Shown: in pieces, positions 17,469 through 22,510 of the stretch
Layout: each line of letters starts with the position of its first letter
How positions within the stretch are numbered: position 1 is the stretch's first letter
Assembly: GCA_027625095.1 (NCBI GenBank)
Contig: JAQBXN010000001.1
Coordinates: 1 to 64,000, forward strand
Length of the DNA: 64,000 nucleotides
DNA from: Planctomycetota bacterium
Lineage (GTDB): Bacteria; Planctomycetota; PUPC01; JACPCR01
Direction of reading: 5' to 3'
Made by a program: the position numbers and the translations under genes
Notes under the pieces: model-generated
The model's database searches: none
Seen by the model: only the letters and a program-made list of their open reading frames with translations
Told to the model about the DNA's origin: nothing

Positions 17469-18503
17469 CTACAAGCACGCCATCTCCACATTACTGAAAC
17501 GCCTTTTGTAGGCACGCATCATATGCACTTTGCGTTCGAGCGCGTCAAGAACGGCTCGGTTGAAGTTGACCTTCTCGAACATCTGGGCGCTCCCGAATCC
17601 GCCGGGGCTGAAGACGTTTATTTCCATTAATTTGTCGCCAACGATATCGAGTCCTACCAGGAACATTCCGTCTTCGACCAGCCGTGGCCGCACTATCTCG
17701 GCGAGTTTGAAGTGGATTTCACCAAGTTTGGCGCGGCGAAGCTTGCCGCCCGCATGTACGTTGCTTCGCATGTCACCACCTACGCGGACCCGACGGAACG
17801 CACAGTATTTTCCTTTATATTGCAGAGGCCGGCCGTTCATGATGAAGAATCGGGTGTCTCCTTCGGCCGCCGCCGGCAGGTACTCCTGCGCGATGACGAA
17901 TCCGTCTGCCGAAACGGCCCTGAACATTGCCTCGAAATGGCGATCGTCTTCGGGCCGGATTATGAATACGTTCTTGCCCCCCGATCCCTGCAACGGTTTG
18001 ATAACAATGGTGCCCTCCTTTTCATAAAACTCTCGTACTCGGTTCTCACTGCGCGAGATAACTGTTCGAGGCCGGACATCTTTAGGAAATGTCTGAAGGT
18101 ACAGCTTGTTCATGGCCTTTGATAAACCGTTGGGATCGTTTAACACGATAACGCCGTGCCGGGTGGCGATTCGTCCGAAATTGATCCCTGCCCATTGCGT
18201 CCATGGACTTTGCACGGACGGGTTATTGCGCAGGAGCAGCACATCCAGATCTTCAAGTGCAATCCATTGTGCGCTGGCCTTAGTCTCCTTCAAAGCCGCA
18301 AGGTACGCCTCCGAGGTCGGGTAGTTTCCCTGGGGCACAAAGCAAGCCAGAGCCCTGACTTTATCGTCGTCTTCATACGAAAAATCGTTAGAAGGGATAA
18401 TGAAGACTTCGTGCCCACGGGTGGTGGCCTCGGCCGCCAGGCGGTAGGTGGTCTGGCCGGTTTGCTCGACTAAAGCGGTGTTGACAACGATGCCTAGTCT
18501 CAT
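17469..18503 (-). CDS. GshB-like ATP-grasp ligase (copy 1, intact)
   Basis: A 344-residue ATP-grasp protein resembling glutathione synthetase (GshB). It has an N-terminal pre-ATP-grasp domain (MRLGIVVNTALVEQTGQTTY), the GVIVLNDPNGLSKAMNKLYL stretch (118-136, like NDP..L..NEK in GshB), the ATP-grasp lysine and glycine loop KPLQGSGGKNVF (169-180), and the metal-binding EINVFSPGG (294-302). Family chemistry is ATP-driven joining of a carboxylate to an amine through an acyl phosphate. No gshA lies nearby, so glutathione is not the obvious product. It is the last gene of the minus-strand cluster and starts 119 nt after the DUF1704 peptidase. A frameshifted paralogue lies on the other side of that peptidase. 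Confidence 0.9.
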   Translation of the reverse strand: MRLGIVVNTALVEQTGQTTYRLAAEATTRGHEVFIIPSNDFSYEDDDKVRALACFVPQGNYPTSEAYLAALKETKASAQWIALEDLDVLLLRNNPSVQSPWTQWAGINFGRIATRHGVIVLNDPNGLSKAMNKLYLQTFPKDVRPRTVISRSENRVREFYEKEGTIVIKPLQGSGGKNVFIIRPEDDRHFEAMFRAVSADGFVIAQEYLPAAAEGDTRFFIMNGRPLQYKGKYCAFRRVRVGGDMRSNVHAGGKLRRAKLGEIHFKLAEIVRPRLVEDGMFLVGLDIVGDKLMEINVFSPGGFGSAQMFEKVNFNRAVLDALERKVHMMRAYKRRFSNVEMACL

Positions 18504-18622
18504 GGGTACAGAAGGGATTGAGTGGTTGAGGTATCTAATATGGAAGATGGAGTCGCTGAATTTCTAATGCTCGGATTGGATGCAAAATTCATGTTCCTGG
18601 CTTGCTGGTTTGGCCGGCGTCC

Positions 18623-20476
18623 TCAAATCAAGTCGAGCACCGTCAATCCATCCCGAAGTTCTTTTAGTTTGTCAGGAGCTGTTTCCAGATAGCGCGGCTT
18701 GAGCGGCGGGCGCTTGATAACGCCTCTCCAGATGAGTTCTTCGATAATGGGGGCCTGGTCGAGAGCAATGCGGCCGGAGTAGAGCGGATCGAGATCGCCG
18801 TCGTCTTTGAGGTACTTCAAAATTGAGATCAGGCCCTTGAGATAGGTGGCGTCTTTGGTCATGCCACCCCCTCGCCAGACGCGCATGGTGATAGTGAAAG
18901 CGCTGTAAGGTTTGAATTTCCATTCATCTATCAACTCTCCGAAAATGTCCTCAAAGGATGCATGCTCGGTGAGCCGGCGGACCGCCAGGACTCTCGCAGC
19001 CAGTACCCGCATTCGCGACAGGCTCAGGCCGCCAGACAGGTATTCGGCAAGGACCGCCATCCCCTCCTGGGTCTCTTCGTATCCGGACATGCCGCTGCGG
19101 ACCAGATTGAGTGGCTGTGTGAGACTGTTGTAGTGGATGATCAGGTGTGTGCCGATTTCATGCTGGAATAGCGCCTCGACCCGAGAGGACGGCACCTCTA
19201 TGTTTCTGCCTATGAGCAGATTTCCGCCGGAGACGATGAGACCGTTGAGGTCTTTGCGTATTCGAACCTTGGGTGTGAATCCGGGATAGATGGAAGAGTA
19301 ACGGGCGATTTCAGCTCTTGCGCGTTTGGCCAGGGCGATGGCTCCGAGCCGGGGGCCGTCATCCCGGGATTCTTTGGGAATGCTTGCAAGCAGACTTACA
19401 GCGGTGTTAAGCAGATCGTCCTCTACCAGTCCGAAGAGCTGAATGCTTTCGTAGAGAAAGTTGGGTGTGCTCCGATCCTGGAGCATCGTGATTCTGCGAT
19501 CCGTTGCGATGCGTTTCCCCTCGTAAAGGTCGGAAAGTGTCGGGTCTTCAATTCGGTGGACGGGGATCTCGTAGAGTTTGCGTTTCAGGTCCGCCGGGCG
19601 CTCAGGGATGGGGCGATACAAGAACTCCGGTTCGCCTCGAAATCCTGCAGCCTTGAATTTGCTCCACGCCCGGCCTGGATTGGCCGGCGTGACGAGCAGC
19701 ATGAAATTGAGAAGACTAACGACCTGTGAAAACCTGCGGTCTACATCTTTCACCGCGCGCACGATGGCCTGGCGACCAAGGGTGTGGAAATGTGGCGGCT
19801 TATCCGTCGTGTGGTGTGAGGCAAACTCGAAGAAAGTTTGGCGTAAGGCAAGCGAGAGGCCCCGATGAACAGCACGCCTGACGTCGGGAAATTGCTTGCC
19901 TGTCTTCAGGTTACGAAAAATCGGAGCGACCTCGATCCCGATGCAAAGTGTCGAGTCTGAATGCTCCGTGAGTGCAGGCAGCCCCATCGGCCAGGGCTGC
20001 GCCGTCTTCAAATGCCGAACCCGTGCACTCTTTTGCAGAACGCGTATCTCGCCCAGCTTTTCCTTCAGTACCTGGAGCAGCGACGGCGGAGTTTCCGGCG
20101 TATGGTGAATCCGAAACACCGGCCGGGCTGCTGCAGATCGGCTAGTGGAGGTGTCTTTGGATGTCCAGACCTCCACAATCAGAAAGGCCCCAAATGCCGG
20201 CTGCAGTGTGGAGCGCGCCGCTTCGACGATTTCGATCGTCTGTTGATGTTGATCCGCCAATGCCTTGAGGTACGAAGCTTCACCAACGATAAGCCGATCA
20301 GCCTGCGGGTCTTCTCTATCGGCAGGTCGCCGATAGACCACAAGGAATGGCAACTGGCGGTCTATGTGCAGCCGCCCCCAGGGCCGCAAACTGCGGCGAA
20401 CCAGTTTGTTCTTCTGGAGACGGCAAGTGATGGACTGCAAGTCGAGCATTCTGTGGTCTTTAGTCCATAGTCTCAC
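18623..20476 (-). CDS. DUF1704 / QEGLA-motif metallocarboxypeptidase-like protein
   Basis: A 617-residue protein of the family annotated as flavohemoglobin expression-modulating QEGLA-motif protein (DUF1704). The zinc motif HEIGTH (HExxxH, residues 439-444) is followed by SGMSGYEETQEGMAVLAEYL (461-480) carrying QEGMA at 470-474, the conserved QEGLA box that supplies a further Glu ligand. DUF1704 is the family of the eukaryotic tubulin carboxypeptidases MATCAP/TMCP, which remove C-terminal residues; bacterial substrates are unknown. No signal peptide. The GTG start overlaps the stop of the preceding ATP-grasp gene by 4 nt (GTGA), showing translational coupling; an ATG nine codons downstream is the alternative. 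A short remnant of a second copy lies at 21512-21703. Confidence 0.92.
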   Translation of the reverse strand: MRLWTKDHRMLDLQSITCRLQKNKLVRRSLRPWGRLHIDRQLPFLVVYRRPADREDPQADRLIVGEASYLKALADQHQQTIEIVEAARSTLQPAFGAFLIVEVWTSKDTSTSRSAAARPVFRIHHTPETPPSLLQVLKEKLGEIRVLQKSARVRHLKTAQPWPMGLPALTEHSDSTLCIGIEVAPIFRNLKTGKQFPDVRRAVHRGLSLALRQTFFEFASHHTTDKPPHFHTLGRQAIVRAVKDVDRRFSQVVSLLNFMLLVTPANPGRAWSKFKAAGFRGEPEFLYRPIPERPADLKRKLYEIPVHRIEDPTLSDLYEGKRIATDRRITMLQDRSTPNFLYESIQLFGLVEDDLLNTAVSLLASIPKESRDDGPRLGAIALAKRARAEIARYSSIYPGFTPKVRIRKDLNGLIVSGGNLLIGRNIEVPSSRVEALFQHEIGTHLIIHYNSLTQPLNLVRSGMSGYEETQEGMAVLAEYLSGGLSLSRMRVLAARVLAVRRLTEHASFEDIFGELIDEWKFKPYSAFTITMRVWRGGGMTKDATYLKGLISILKYLKDDGDLDPLYSGRIALDQAPIIEELIWRGVIKRPPLKPRYLETAPDKLKELRDGLTVLDLI

Positions 20477-21515
20477 AACATCGCCATATCTACGTTGTTG
20501 AAGCTCCTGTCGTAGTAGCTCATGTATCGGGTCTTCGCTTCCATCGCCTGGATAACGGCGTGCGTGAAATTGACCTTCTCAAACTTCTGTGCGCTACCTA
20601 GTCCGCCGGGGCTGAAGACATTTATTTCCATCAGTTTATCGCCGACTATGTCCAGGCCAACGAGGAACATGCCATCCTCGACAAGTTTGGGACGTACGAT
20701 TTCTGCGAGACGTAATTCGACCTCTCCGATTTCCGCCTTTGCCAGCGAGCCGCCTGCATGAATATTACTGCGCATATCGCCTCACGCCGAATACGGCGGA
20801 ACGCCGCATACTTACCTTTATAACGGAGTGGCATACCGTTCATCACAAACAGACGAGTGTCGCCTTTCTCTGCATCTTTCAGGTATTCCTGGCAAATGAC
20901 GTAACCACTTCGGCTGACGGCATCGATCATCTGGTTGAGATTGGGAATGTCTTCTGGACGCACCATAAAGACGCTTTCGCCGCCAGAGCCCTGGAGCGGC
21001 TTGATGACGATGTTCTGGTATTCGCGGGCAAACGATTTTATTTCTTCACGGTCGCGGGTAATAAGCGTGTTTGGACGCACTTCCTCTGGAAAGTGCTGGA
21101 AATACATCTTGTTCTGGGCTTTCGCCAAGCCGTTCGGGTCGTTCAGCACGATGACGCCGTGACGCATGGCGGTGCGGCCAAAGATGATACCGGCGCCCTG
21201 AGCCCAGGTGCGATTCGCAGCATCCGAAGAAGGATCGTTTCGCAACATCAGTACATCGAGGTCATCGACGGTGATGCGTTCCACTTTGGCGCCCTTGCCC
21301 TTTAGCTCTTTCAGGTAGGTTTCGGATGACTTGTAACTGGCCTTGGGTGCGTGCCGGGCACGTGCCTTTATTTTTTCGTCGGGGTCGTAGGCGAAGTCAC
21401 CGGCACCAATCACCCACGCTTCGTGTCCAAGATTAATGGCAGCCATGGCCAGACGGGTGGTGGTGTAGCCGGTCTCCTCGGTGTTGATGTCATTTACTAC
21501 TAGTCCAATTTTCAT
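20473..21515 (-). pseudogene. GshB-like ATP-grasp ligase (copy 2), single-base frameshift
   Basis: Two overlapping frames together give a protein collinear with copy 1. 20646-21515 encodes the N-terminal domain, the NDPNGLAKAQNKMYF stretch and KPLQGSGGESVF, and stays in register to FRRIRR. 20473-20775 continues with MRSNIHAGG to EINVFSPGG and a matching C-terminus. Copy 1 reads FRRVRVGGDMRSN; restoring one C on the plus strand near 20783 (one G on the coding strand) gives FRRIRRGGDMRSN and a full-length protein of about 347 residues. The cause is either a real mutation or a sequencing error. Both gene junctions are preserved: the start overlaps the upstream remnant (ATGA) and the stop overlaps the DUF1704 start (GTGA), which argues for recent or only apparent damage. 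Confidence 0.85.
20783..20784 (-). other. Frameshift position in ATP-grasp copy 2
   Basis: The plus strand reads GCCTCACGCC. A second C after CCTC (coding strand GTGGAGG instead of GTGAGG) would rejoin the two frames and restore the RGGDMRSN block seen in copy 1. Confidence 0.75.
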
Positions 21516-21703
21516 TTGTTGATCTTTTCGATGAGGTAAAGCAGGCTGAAGCCGTTTCGAACGCGTTCCAGTCGCTTTAGTGTTTCAGGCCTATCAAAAT
21601 AAAGCGGACGAAGAGGTGCGGCCTTTAGCACCTTTCGCCACTGAAGTCCTTCGATAAGGACGATATGTTCGGATGAATCGTTGATGGCCGCGGCATCCAC
21701 CAT
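21512..21703 (-). pseudogene. C-terminal remnant of a second DUF1704 peptidase
   Basis: The 63-residue frame is homologous to the last 50 residues of the complete DUF1704 protein. Here EHIVLIEGLQWRKVLKAAPL and RPLYFDRPETLKRLERVRNG with FSLLYLI match APIIEELIWRGVIKRPPLKP, RYLETAPDKLKELRDGL and TVLDLI at 18623-18770. About 560 N-terminal residues, including the zinc motif, are missing. It begins 15 nt after the amidohydrolase gene and its TGA overlaps the ATG of ATP-grasp copy 2. The simplest reading is an in-place deletion in an older DUF1704/ATP-grasp gene pair. A short peptide could still be made because the start codon and coupling persist. Confidence 0.75.
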
Positions 21704-21718
21704 TCACGTCCGCTATCT

Positions 21719-22510
21719 TCAGCCTCCGCCTTTCAGAGTTCCAAGCCCTTCCATCAGGCCGGGTAACGTCGATCTCAAGGCTTTCCAAATAAGGTTTACC
21801 TGCTCAGTATTTTTTTCGCCAGTCCACTCGTCCATGAAAAACTTCTTGAACTCGACGGCGAGTGAACAGCCTTTGCCTGGAAAAGTTTCGTGAATCCAGC
21901 GTGAAAAATTCCCTCCCTTGAATTTCACGTTTTCACGCACGTCGAGGTGTCGTCCGTTAAAGTCAAAGCCGCTCAGATCGCTTCTGAAACGCTGCACCAG
22001 ACCGCTCCAGACAGATTTGTCTATGGATTCGGTGCCGAGGTTGACCTCTGGATGAGTATCGGGATCGGCCGGCTCGGCGTTGGGGCCTGCTCGCCGGTGG
22101 TTGTAGGTATGAAGGTCGAGGACTACGAAGTAACCGTGCCGGCTCACGGTGTCCTTCAGCAGGGCCTTTACTATGGCGTAAAAGCGGTCGTATTCACTTA
22201 GCGATTCCTCCACCGCATGTGCTGGGAGTTCGCTCCAGACATCCAGACCCCACGCGTCTTCGGGCTTACGATAAACCGCTTTGTCTCTGGGACGGTTCAG
22301 ATCAACCTCGAAACGCGAGCGCAGTCCGATTATTCGGTTGTCAGAAACGCTTGCCCAGTAGGCTGTGTGAGGGTCTTCTTCAATGAGGCGGCTGTCGCTG
22401 CCCAGCTTGAAGAGCAGTTCGAGTTCTGGGCGAACATCGTGTCCATCATGGATGGCAGCGGCGATGATTGGGCTGTTGCCAACCTGGATCTCAAATAGGG
22501 GCATAGACAT
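21719..22510 (-). CDS. N-formylglutamate amidohydrolase family protein
   Basis: A 263-residue protein of the N-formylglutamate amidohydrolase (FGase) family. SRFEVDLNRPR (65-75) and VVLDLHTYNHRR (129-140) are the usual metal and substrate motifs, with an early histidine pair in AAIHDGHDVRPE (19-30). Family members cleave N-formyl-glutamate in histidine degradation or act on related acyl-glutamates. No hut genes are present here, so the role is probably different. It is the first gene of the minus-strand cluster with the ATP-grasp and DUF1704 genes, which suggests that glutamate- or aspartate-containing small peptides or conjugates are the shared chemistry. The start has a competing ATG two codons downstream. 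Confidence 0.9.
   Translation of the reverse strand: MSMPLFEIQVGNSPIIAAAIHDGHDVRPELELLFKLGSDSRLIEEDPHTAYWASVSDNRIIGLRSRFEVDLNRPRDKAVYRKPEDAWGLDVWSELPAHAVEESLSEYDRFYAIVKALLKDTVSRHGYFVVLDLHTYNHRRAGPNAEPADPDTHPEVNLGTESIDKSVWSGLVQRFRSDLSGFDFNGRHLDVRENVKFKGGNFSRWIHETFPGKGCSLAVEFKKFFMDEWTGEKNTEQVNLIWKALRSTLPGLMEGLGTLKGGG

Follow-up and report, generated by a model that had tools for sequence, protein, structure and literature searches.

What does a bacterium do with a gene cluster in which ligases of the kind that join an amino acid to a peptide lie beside a relative of the tubulin carboxypeptidases? The question is raised by positions 22510-17469 of the window, the 64,000 nucleotides analysed here from a Planctomycetota bacterium (assembly GCA_027625095.1, contig JAQBXN010000001.1, positions 1 to 64,000), where genes for an N-formylglutamate amidohydrolase-like (FGase-like) protein, two GshB-like ATP-grasp ligases and a MATCAP/DUF1704 protein lie together. 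The cluster, whose arrangement is far beyond chance, is a strongly conserved and co-inherited unit. It is tentatively explained as a conserved set of enzymes by which a small peptide is built up and cut back in ionic and osmotic adaptation, particularly at low osmolarity.

Gene content of the cluster

All four genes share the minus strand, as six-frame open reading frames (ORFs) and profile searches of the window confirmed for the gene set described in an earlier sequence-only reading. The features are as follows.

22510-21719, minus strand: FGase-like zinc amidohydrolase, stand-alone, M14-like fold, 263 aa (PF05013, E 8.7e-16)
21515-20473, minus strand: ATP-grasp ligase A, GshB-like and NF009110/PRK12458-like (ORFs, profile searches and alignment)
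21515-20646 and 20775-20473, minus strand: the two ORFs into which ligase A is split by a frameshift
20476-18623, minus strand: entire MATCAP/DUF1704 protein (PF08014, E 5e-78; TIGR02421 'QEGLA')
20476-19772, minus strand: N-terminal ~235 residues of the MATCAP protein, a degenerate FGase-derived domain (profile, fold and fusion relatives)
19771-18623, minus strand: MATCAP/DUF1704 zincin domain (PF08014, E 5e-78; profile match to 7z5g)
19162-19145, minus strand: HEIGTH motif, residues 439-444 of the MATCAP protein
19069-19055, minus strand: QEGMA motif, residues 470-474 of the MATCAP protein
18503-17469, minus strand: ATP-grasp ligase B, GshB-like (PF02955, E 3e-48; NF009110)

The overlapping start and stop codons of the sequence-only reading are found at one junction of the window, where the stop of ligase A ends at 20473 and the MATCAP protein begins with a GTG codon at 20476; the other two junctions have gaps of 203 bp (FGase and ligase A) and 119 bp (MATCAP and ligase B). 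The GTG start is uncertain because residues 1-9 are modelled with a predicted local distance difference test (pLDDT) value below 50. Both ligase copies noted earlier are present, with copy A broken in mid-gene by a one-base frameshift near 20770, which is either a real pseudogene mutation or an assembly error. The assembly of the window's genome (G000; 8.95 Mb, 262 contigs, ~95% complete) holds a second, intact ligase-MATCAP pair elsewhere (G000:C233, locus L038), and the ligase of this pair is of type A. A third ligase gene of the same genome (G000:C120:12546-13589, equal to L162:8547-9590) has a short MATCAP remnant upstream and is apparently what is left of a decayed cluster.

Conservation across bacteria

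Conservation was assessed on the 80 best relatives from genome contigs, picked by similarity to the long MATCAP form. These belong to at least 13 phyla: Bacteroidota (24), Pseudomonadota (17), Planctomycetota (13), Acidobacteriota (5), Actinomycetota (5) and eight further phyla. Within 3 kb of the MATCAP gene an FGase gene is present in 68 of 80 loci, a ligase gene in 74 and both in 64, and 53 of 80 have the order FGase-MATCAP-ligase (FMG) with no other cluster gene. Spacing is tight: 54 of 59 FGase-MATCAP and 51 of 59 MATCAP-ligase junctions measure at most 30 bp. The distances among the three proteins are correlated (Mantel r 0.71-0.78), a value reached in none of 2000 permutations, whose maxima were ~0.2. 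The neighbourhood survey that had been set beforehand as the refuting test thus returned very strong repeated co-occurrence.

Because these 80 loci were chosen by long-MATCAP similarity, a separate survey of 392 Planctomycetota genomes carries weight. The cluster-type FGase occurs in 17 of them and MATCAP in all 17 (Fisher p 1.3e-16, computed over related genomes that are non-independent draws), and 22 of the 27 strong ligases in the 392 genomes adjoin a MATCAP gene. In three Planctomycetota loci (L083, L121 and L084) the cluster is doubled, a single row holding two MATCAP genes together with several ligase genes (FMGGMG or MGGMG). The MATCAP gene is also found on plasmids, in over 100 records that come mostly from rhizobia (Sinorhizobium, Ensifer, Shinella, Rhizobium), pSymB among them. 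Relatives of the protein were not found on viral contigs, and phage records gave a single weak, partial match. Short MATCAP proteins (mostly 400-590 aa) were set aside from the analysis of the unit; 17 such loci lack a conserved neighbour, except for one case with AstE and RimK (L065) described below.

The MATCAP protein and its N-terminal domain

Over its catalytic domain the protein belongs to the MATCAP family (PF08014, 263 bits against a cut-off of 27). It gives a profile match to the structure of human KIAA0895L/MATCAP1 (7z5g, E 6.6e-11) in which HExxxH, E-G-L-A and KDxxYLxG are aligned. The HEIGTH and QEGMA motifs seen earlier in the letters are present, and their core is all but invariant among the long relatives (HExxxH in 104 of 104, QEG in 103 of 104). 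The AlphaFold2 model has a pLDDT of 92.8.

The N-terminal ~235 residues gave no match in the Pfam search. They align with the FGase in a profile comparison (E 2e-5, probability 77%), and the fold matches of the protein model include the FGase structure 2q7s. At this same N-terminal position, three loci (L043, L044 and L045) have an FGase domain with most or all of its motifs fused to MATCAP, and a separate strong FGase gene was not seen in them; they are the only ones among 104 long MATCAP proteins to keep three or more of the four FGase motifs. From these fusions, the profile match and the motif census, the usual long MATCAP protein is a zincin that looks active, preceded by a degenerate copy of the FGase, with the intact FGase made separately. 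Its catalytic motifs lost, the N-terminal domain would probably serve for substrate binding or for docking of a partner enzyme.

The automatic annotation of the protein is 'flavohemoglobin expression-modulating QEGLA motif protein'. In the open-access literature the flavohemoglobin name of TIGR02421 was met in a single paper, as annotation, and no experimental study of bacterial MATCAP homologues was found there.

The FGase-like protein

The match to PF05013 and the zinc-site motifs place this protein in the N-formylglutamate amidohydrolase family, which is also its automatic annotation. Its residues H21, E44-E45-D46-P47, D132-x-H134 and E220 are invariant over 39 relatives. The AlphaFold2 model (pLDDT 95.9) has its nearest folds in the FGases 2q7s (E 1.3e-11) and 2odf, followed by the phage poly-gamma-glutamate hydrolase 3a9l and carboxypeptidases. 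The window protein has no NCBIfam match to the HutG equivalog TIGR02017, on which a relative scored 24 against a cut-off of 278.75 bits, and hut genes are not recurrent among the neighbour families listed. HutG-type histidine degradation was considered on these two counts and is unlikely; the protein forms a subfamily of its own tied to MATCAP.

These results bear on a reading that makes the FGase and MATCAP the degrading enzymes of a peptide or N-acyl amino acid taken up from outside, with the ATP-grasp enzyme re-using or detoxifying the product and the osmotic genes nearby being incidental. The FGase does come from the family of the histidine-degradation deformylases, and an amino-acid permease is encoded in the window and among the neighbours of other loci. 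Such breakdown or salvage is nevertheless very unlikely, as the neighbour families listed show no recurrent genes for histidine degradation or other catabolism, and the FGase subfamily, tied to MATCAP, does not match the HutG equivalog.

The ATP-grasp ligases and the question of glutathione

Ligase B passes the cut-off of the NF009110/PRK12458 subfamily (413.3 against 408 bits), and the two pieces into which the frameshift splits ligase A score 315.7 and 137.3 on the same model. Ligase B falls below both glutathione-synthase equivalogs (TIGR01380, 208.4 against 299.05 bits; NF003573, 216.7 against 272 bits) and below the RimK alpha-L-glutamate ligase cut-off (TIGR00768, 68.1 against 143.4 bits). 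Membership in the tubulin tyrosine ligase (TTL) family was rejected, since the Pfam search of both ligases gave no TTL match. Among solved structures the nearest is that of E. coli GshB (1gsa, E 8.9e-39). Ligases A and B form two separate clades, which may add different residues, and the nearest relatives of ligase B are mostly extra copies in loci with at least two ligases (L121, L083, L100, L040, L042 and L148). Most of the ligases have the motif RSNxHAGG, which we take to be nearer to RimK than to GshB.

With 'glutathione synthase' as the automatic annotation of the ligase, thiol metabolism has to be considered: glutathione, or another gamma-glutamyl tripeptide like it, would be the product of the ligase, and both hydrolases would recycle this product or its conjugates. 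Such a role would agree with GshB as the nearest solved relative, with gshA-like genes (PF04107) in some operon-bearing genomes and with bacillithiol BshC genes near two loci. The likeness to GshB is offset by the two failed equivalog cut-offs and by the lack of a gshA partner: neither GCS2 (PF04107) nor Glu_cys_ligase (PF04262) was found in the window's genome assembly, neither of the two was found in the single-contig operon-bearing genome G129, and gshA was not found in several further operon-bearing genomes. Thiol metabolism would also leave the ion and osmotic neighbourhood of the cluster without explanation. Ordinary glutathione synthesis is therefore unlikely, in agreement with the sequence-only reading, whose observation that gshA is absent holds for the assembly as a whole, and the thiol reading as a whole is given a very small chance.

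Genes for ion transport and osmotic stress around the cluster

The genes on either side of the cluster are as follows.

24157-23108, minus strand: universal stress protein with two domains, lying upstream (PF00582, two stretches)
17105-15924, minus strand: CorA Mg2+/Co2+ transporter, directly downstream of ligase B (TIGR00383, E 2.2e-95)
13818-12967, minus strand: protein with a mechanosensitive-channel transmembrane helix (PF05552)
12992-12141, minus strand: MgtE_N-CBS protein
12106-10805, minus strand: MgtE Mg2+ transporter
10686-8503, minus strand: amino-acid permease fused to a universal-stress domain (PF00324 and PF00582)

The same-strand run of ion-channel and Mg2+-transporter genes reaches down to position ~8.5 kb of the window; the sequence-only reading left it out, together with the FGase-derived domain and any role in ionic or osmotic physiology. 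The trio of mechanosensitive-channel helix protein, MgtE_N-CBS protein and MgtE recurs in three other phyla, after the ligase in L107 and L148 and upstream of the cluster in L130. Of 102 long-MATCAP loci, 7 have CorA, that of the window being one of them, and MgtE recurs near such loci as well.

The commonest neighbour family in the first neighbour set was the mechanosensitive channel MscS. Near long-MATCAP clusters there are ~25 strong MscS matches in 1.354 Mb of flanking DNA, from at least nine phyla, and none near 19 short-MATCAP loci. As background, Planctomycetota genomes with the operon have 55 in 78.4 Mb (0.70 per Mb), and other genomes with the operon have 133 in ~121.5 Mb (1.09 per Mb). 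The enrichment that follows is ~17- to 26-fold, with a Poisson p far below 1e-10 whether the background is set at 0.70 or at 1.52 per Mb. Two ligase genes without a nearby MATCAP gene (G263:C310 and G136:C20) lie within ~0.4 and 4.7 kb of an MscS gene. In Photobacterium damselae grown at 1% as compared with 3% NaCl, the QEGLA gene was reported to be up 27.5-fold and the next-numbered 'GshB' gene up 38.4-fold (PMC10308900). The context of MscS, CorA, MgtE and, in one locus, rlo genes, together with this published induction at low salinity, points to ionic and osmotic physiology.

Relation to known ligase-peptidase systems

The survey of amidoligases by Iyer et al. (2009, Mol BioSyst) reportedly dealt with the gene neighbourhoods of ATP-grasp enzymes, and some of the context described here may already appear in it. 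In three loci another zinc deacylase, AstE/AspA, occurs beside MATCAP. An AstE/AspA deacylase gene overlaps the MATCAP start in L151 (Magnetococcales), at the place expected for the FGase. L169 has a short MATCAP followed by AstE/AspA and then a PRK12458-like ligase, and L065 (7643-11554) has a short MATCAP, AstE/AspA and a RimK that also carries a TrkA_C domain. AstE/AspA, FGase and the M14 carboxypeptidases have a common zinc-exopeptidase fold. The RimK of L065 scores just under the S6-ligase cut-off (325.8 against 331 bits). The locus is a possible link between an S6-type ligase and MATCAP.

Among characterized systems the closest in design is RimK/RimB, in which an ATP-grasp ligase adds amino acids to a C-terminus and also produces free poly-alpha-glutamate, while a protease dedicated to the task and encoded in the same operon counterbalances it (PMC11957791). 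It is a working precedent for ligation and trimming with different enzymes, RimB being a retropepsin where the present cluster has a MATCAP zincin and an FGase/M14-like enzyme beside a GshB/PRK12458-like ligase. The Rlo system consists of a retropepsin (RloA), an inactive transglutaminase with seven transmembrane helices (RloB) and an ATP-grasp protein (RloC), and rloABC governs hypo-osmotic tolerance in Pseudomonas aeruginosa (PMC12239564). It too joins an ATP-grasp enzyme with a peptidase, and in L147:248-5679 (Magnetococcales) genes for MATCAP, ligase, RloA-like, RloB-like and RloC-like proteins follow in a row on the same strand, with MscS further on. The Rlo protease is secreted and aspartic, whereas the MATCAP-FGase-ligase core has no membrane protein or evident signal peptide (judged by eye). 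RloA-like and RloB-like genes are not present in the window cluster, which was thereby rejected as an Rlo operon, and stand beside MATCAP only in L147 among the loci searched. A further likeness is to the N-acetylglutaminylglutamine amide (NAGGN) operon asnO-ngg-peptidase, a small operon for non-ribosomal peptide-bond synthesis with a peptidase and a part in osmotic adaptation; its enzymes are others, and its genes answer high, not low, osmolarity (PMC8070244). By the tests made, the cluster stands outside the Rim, Rlo, GshB and TTL families and is a new form of the pairing of an ATP-grasp ligase with a protease. Such pairing of a ligase with a peptidase for one and the same product, as proposed earlier for this locus, thus has precedents in RimK/RimB and, genetically, in Rlo; the peptidase activity of the present cluster is a predicted one.

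The tubulin carboxypeptidases (MATCAP/TMCP) share with the bacterial protein PF08014, HExxxH, E/Q-E-G and KDxxYLxG. The similarity is a distant one, at the profile level, tubulin is not an expected substrate in bacteria, and the bacterial long form has its degenerate FGase domain and is bound in an operon to an ATP-grasp ligase. The resemblance to the tubulin tyrosination cycle that had been drawn from the letters therefore stands for the MATCAP half and not for the ligase, which is GshB-like and gave no TTL match.

Substrate and mechanism

These comparisons leave room for a reversible tagging of protein, in which the ligases would extend a protein C-terminus or a side-chain carboxylate in the manner of RimK and S6, and the MATCAP homologue would trim the extension, as a bacterial counterpart of the tubulin logic. 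The metal-binding motifs kept in the bacterial protein, the short MATCAP of L065 beside AstE/AspA and a near-S6 RimK, and the presumably RimK-like motif RSNxHAGG of most ligases agree with it. So do the removal of single residues from tubulin C-termini by TMCP1/MATCAP1 (PMC10499314) and the proven bacterial glutamylate-and-trim pair RimK/RimB (PMC11957791). No protein substrate was found, however, and nothing shows the 'tagging' of protein that the earlier reading had in its name; the ligase is nearer to glutathione synthetase (NF009110) than to RimK, and an FGase partner fits a small-molecule amide. Protein tagging is accordingly regarded as doubtful. A narrower form of it, a ligate-and-trim cycle on the C-terminus of one protein, for example a co-encoded mechanosensitive channel or Mg2+ transporter, switched by ionic strength or membrane tension, is quite unlikely.

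The explanation preferred here remains the building and trimming of a small peptide, with a substrate that is most likely a pool of short, free, glutamate-type peptide and possibly a protein C-terminus, the two being not well separated. Three features favour the free peptide: an FGase partner suited to small molecules, a ligase of GshB-like type and a neighbourhood of ion-transport genes. One or two ATP-grasp ligases of GshB/RimK type would add an amino acid to a peptide carboxylate at the expense of ATP. The HExxxH zincin of MATCAP type would take C-terminal residues off this same substrate, and the bacterial MATCAP branch is the probable trimming enzyme of the cluster. The FGase-like enzyme, with its M14-like fold, may hydrolyze an amide at the acyl or gamma-glutamyl end, or cleave the finished peptide.

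Several observations weigh against this explanation. Fewer than one locus in four has an MscS gene nearby and the remaining neighbours vary, which makes the osmotic link a statistical one. The Photobacterium 'GshB' may not be a cluster-type ligase, the QEGLA gene of Vibrio sp. HDW18 has no adjoining ligase, and most short MATCAP proteins have neither a ligase nor an FGase partner, so that MATCAP can do without the partnership. One of the two ligases in the window is the frameshifted copy. The AstE substitution and the rlo junction are known from one to three loci. The 50 best Foldseek matches of the full-length MATCAP model are FGase-like and other zinc enzymes and do not include MATCAP1 (7z5g), for which reason the MATCAP assignment rests on sequence profiles. 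Neither a substrate gene nor a metabolite was identified, the flanks having had no dedicated search for small ORFs; since most loci have the three genes overlapping or directly adjoining, the operon itself is unlikely to contain a conserved small gene for a substrate.

Significance

The automatic annotation names hide a coherent three-enzyme system that is present in at least 13 phyla and, through plasmids, in tractable rhizobia. If a peptide is indeed built and trimmed, the cluster would add a metallopeptidase-based branch to the ATP-grasp/protease modules of the RimK/RimB and Rlo kind. It would also provide a bacterial setting for the family to which a recently discovered tubulin carboxypeptidase belongs, and a link to osmotic and Mg2+ stress that can be tested. 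Should the cycle act on protein instead, the peptidase half of the tubulin tyrosination logic would be present in bacteria across these same phyla.

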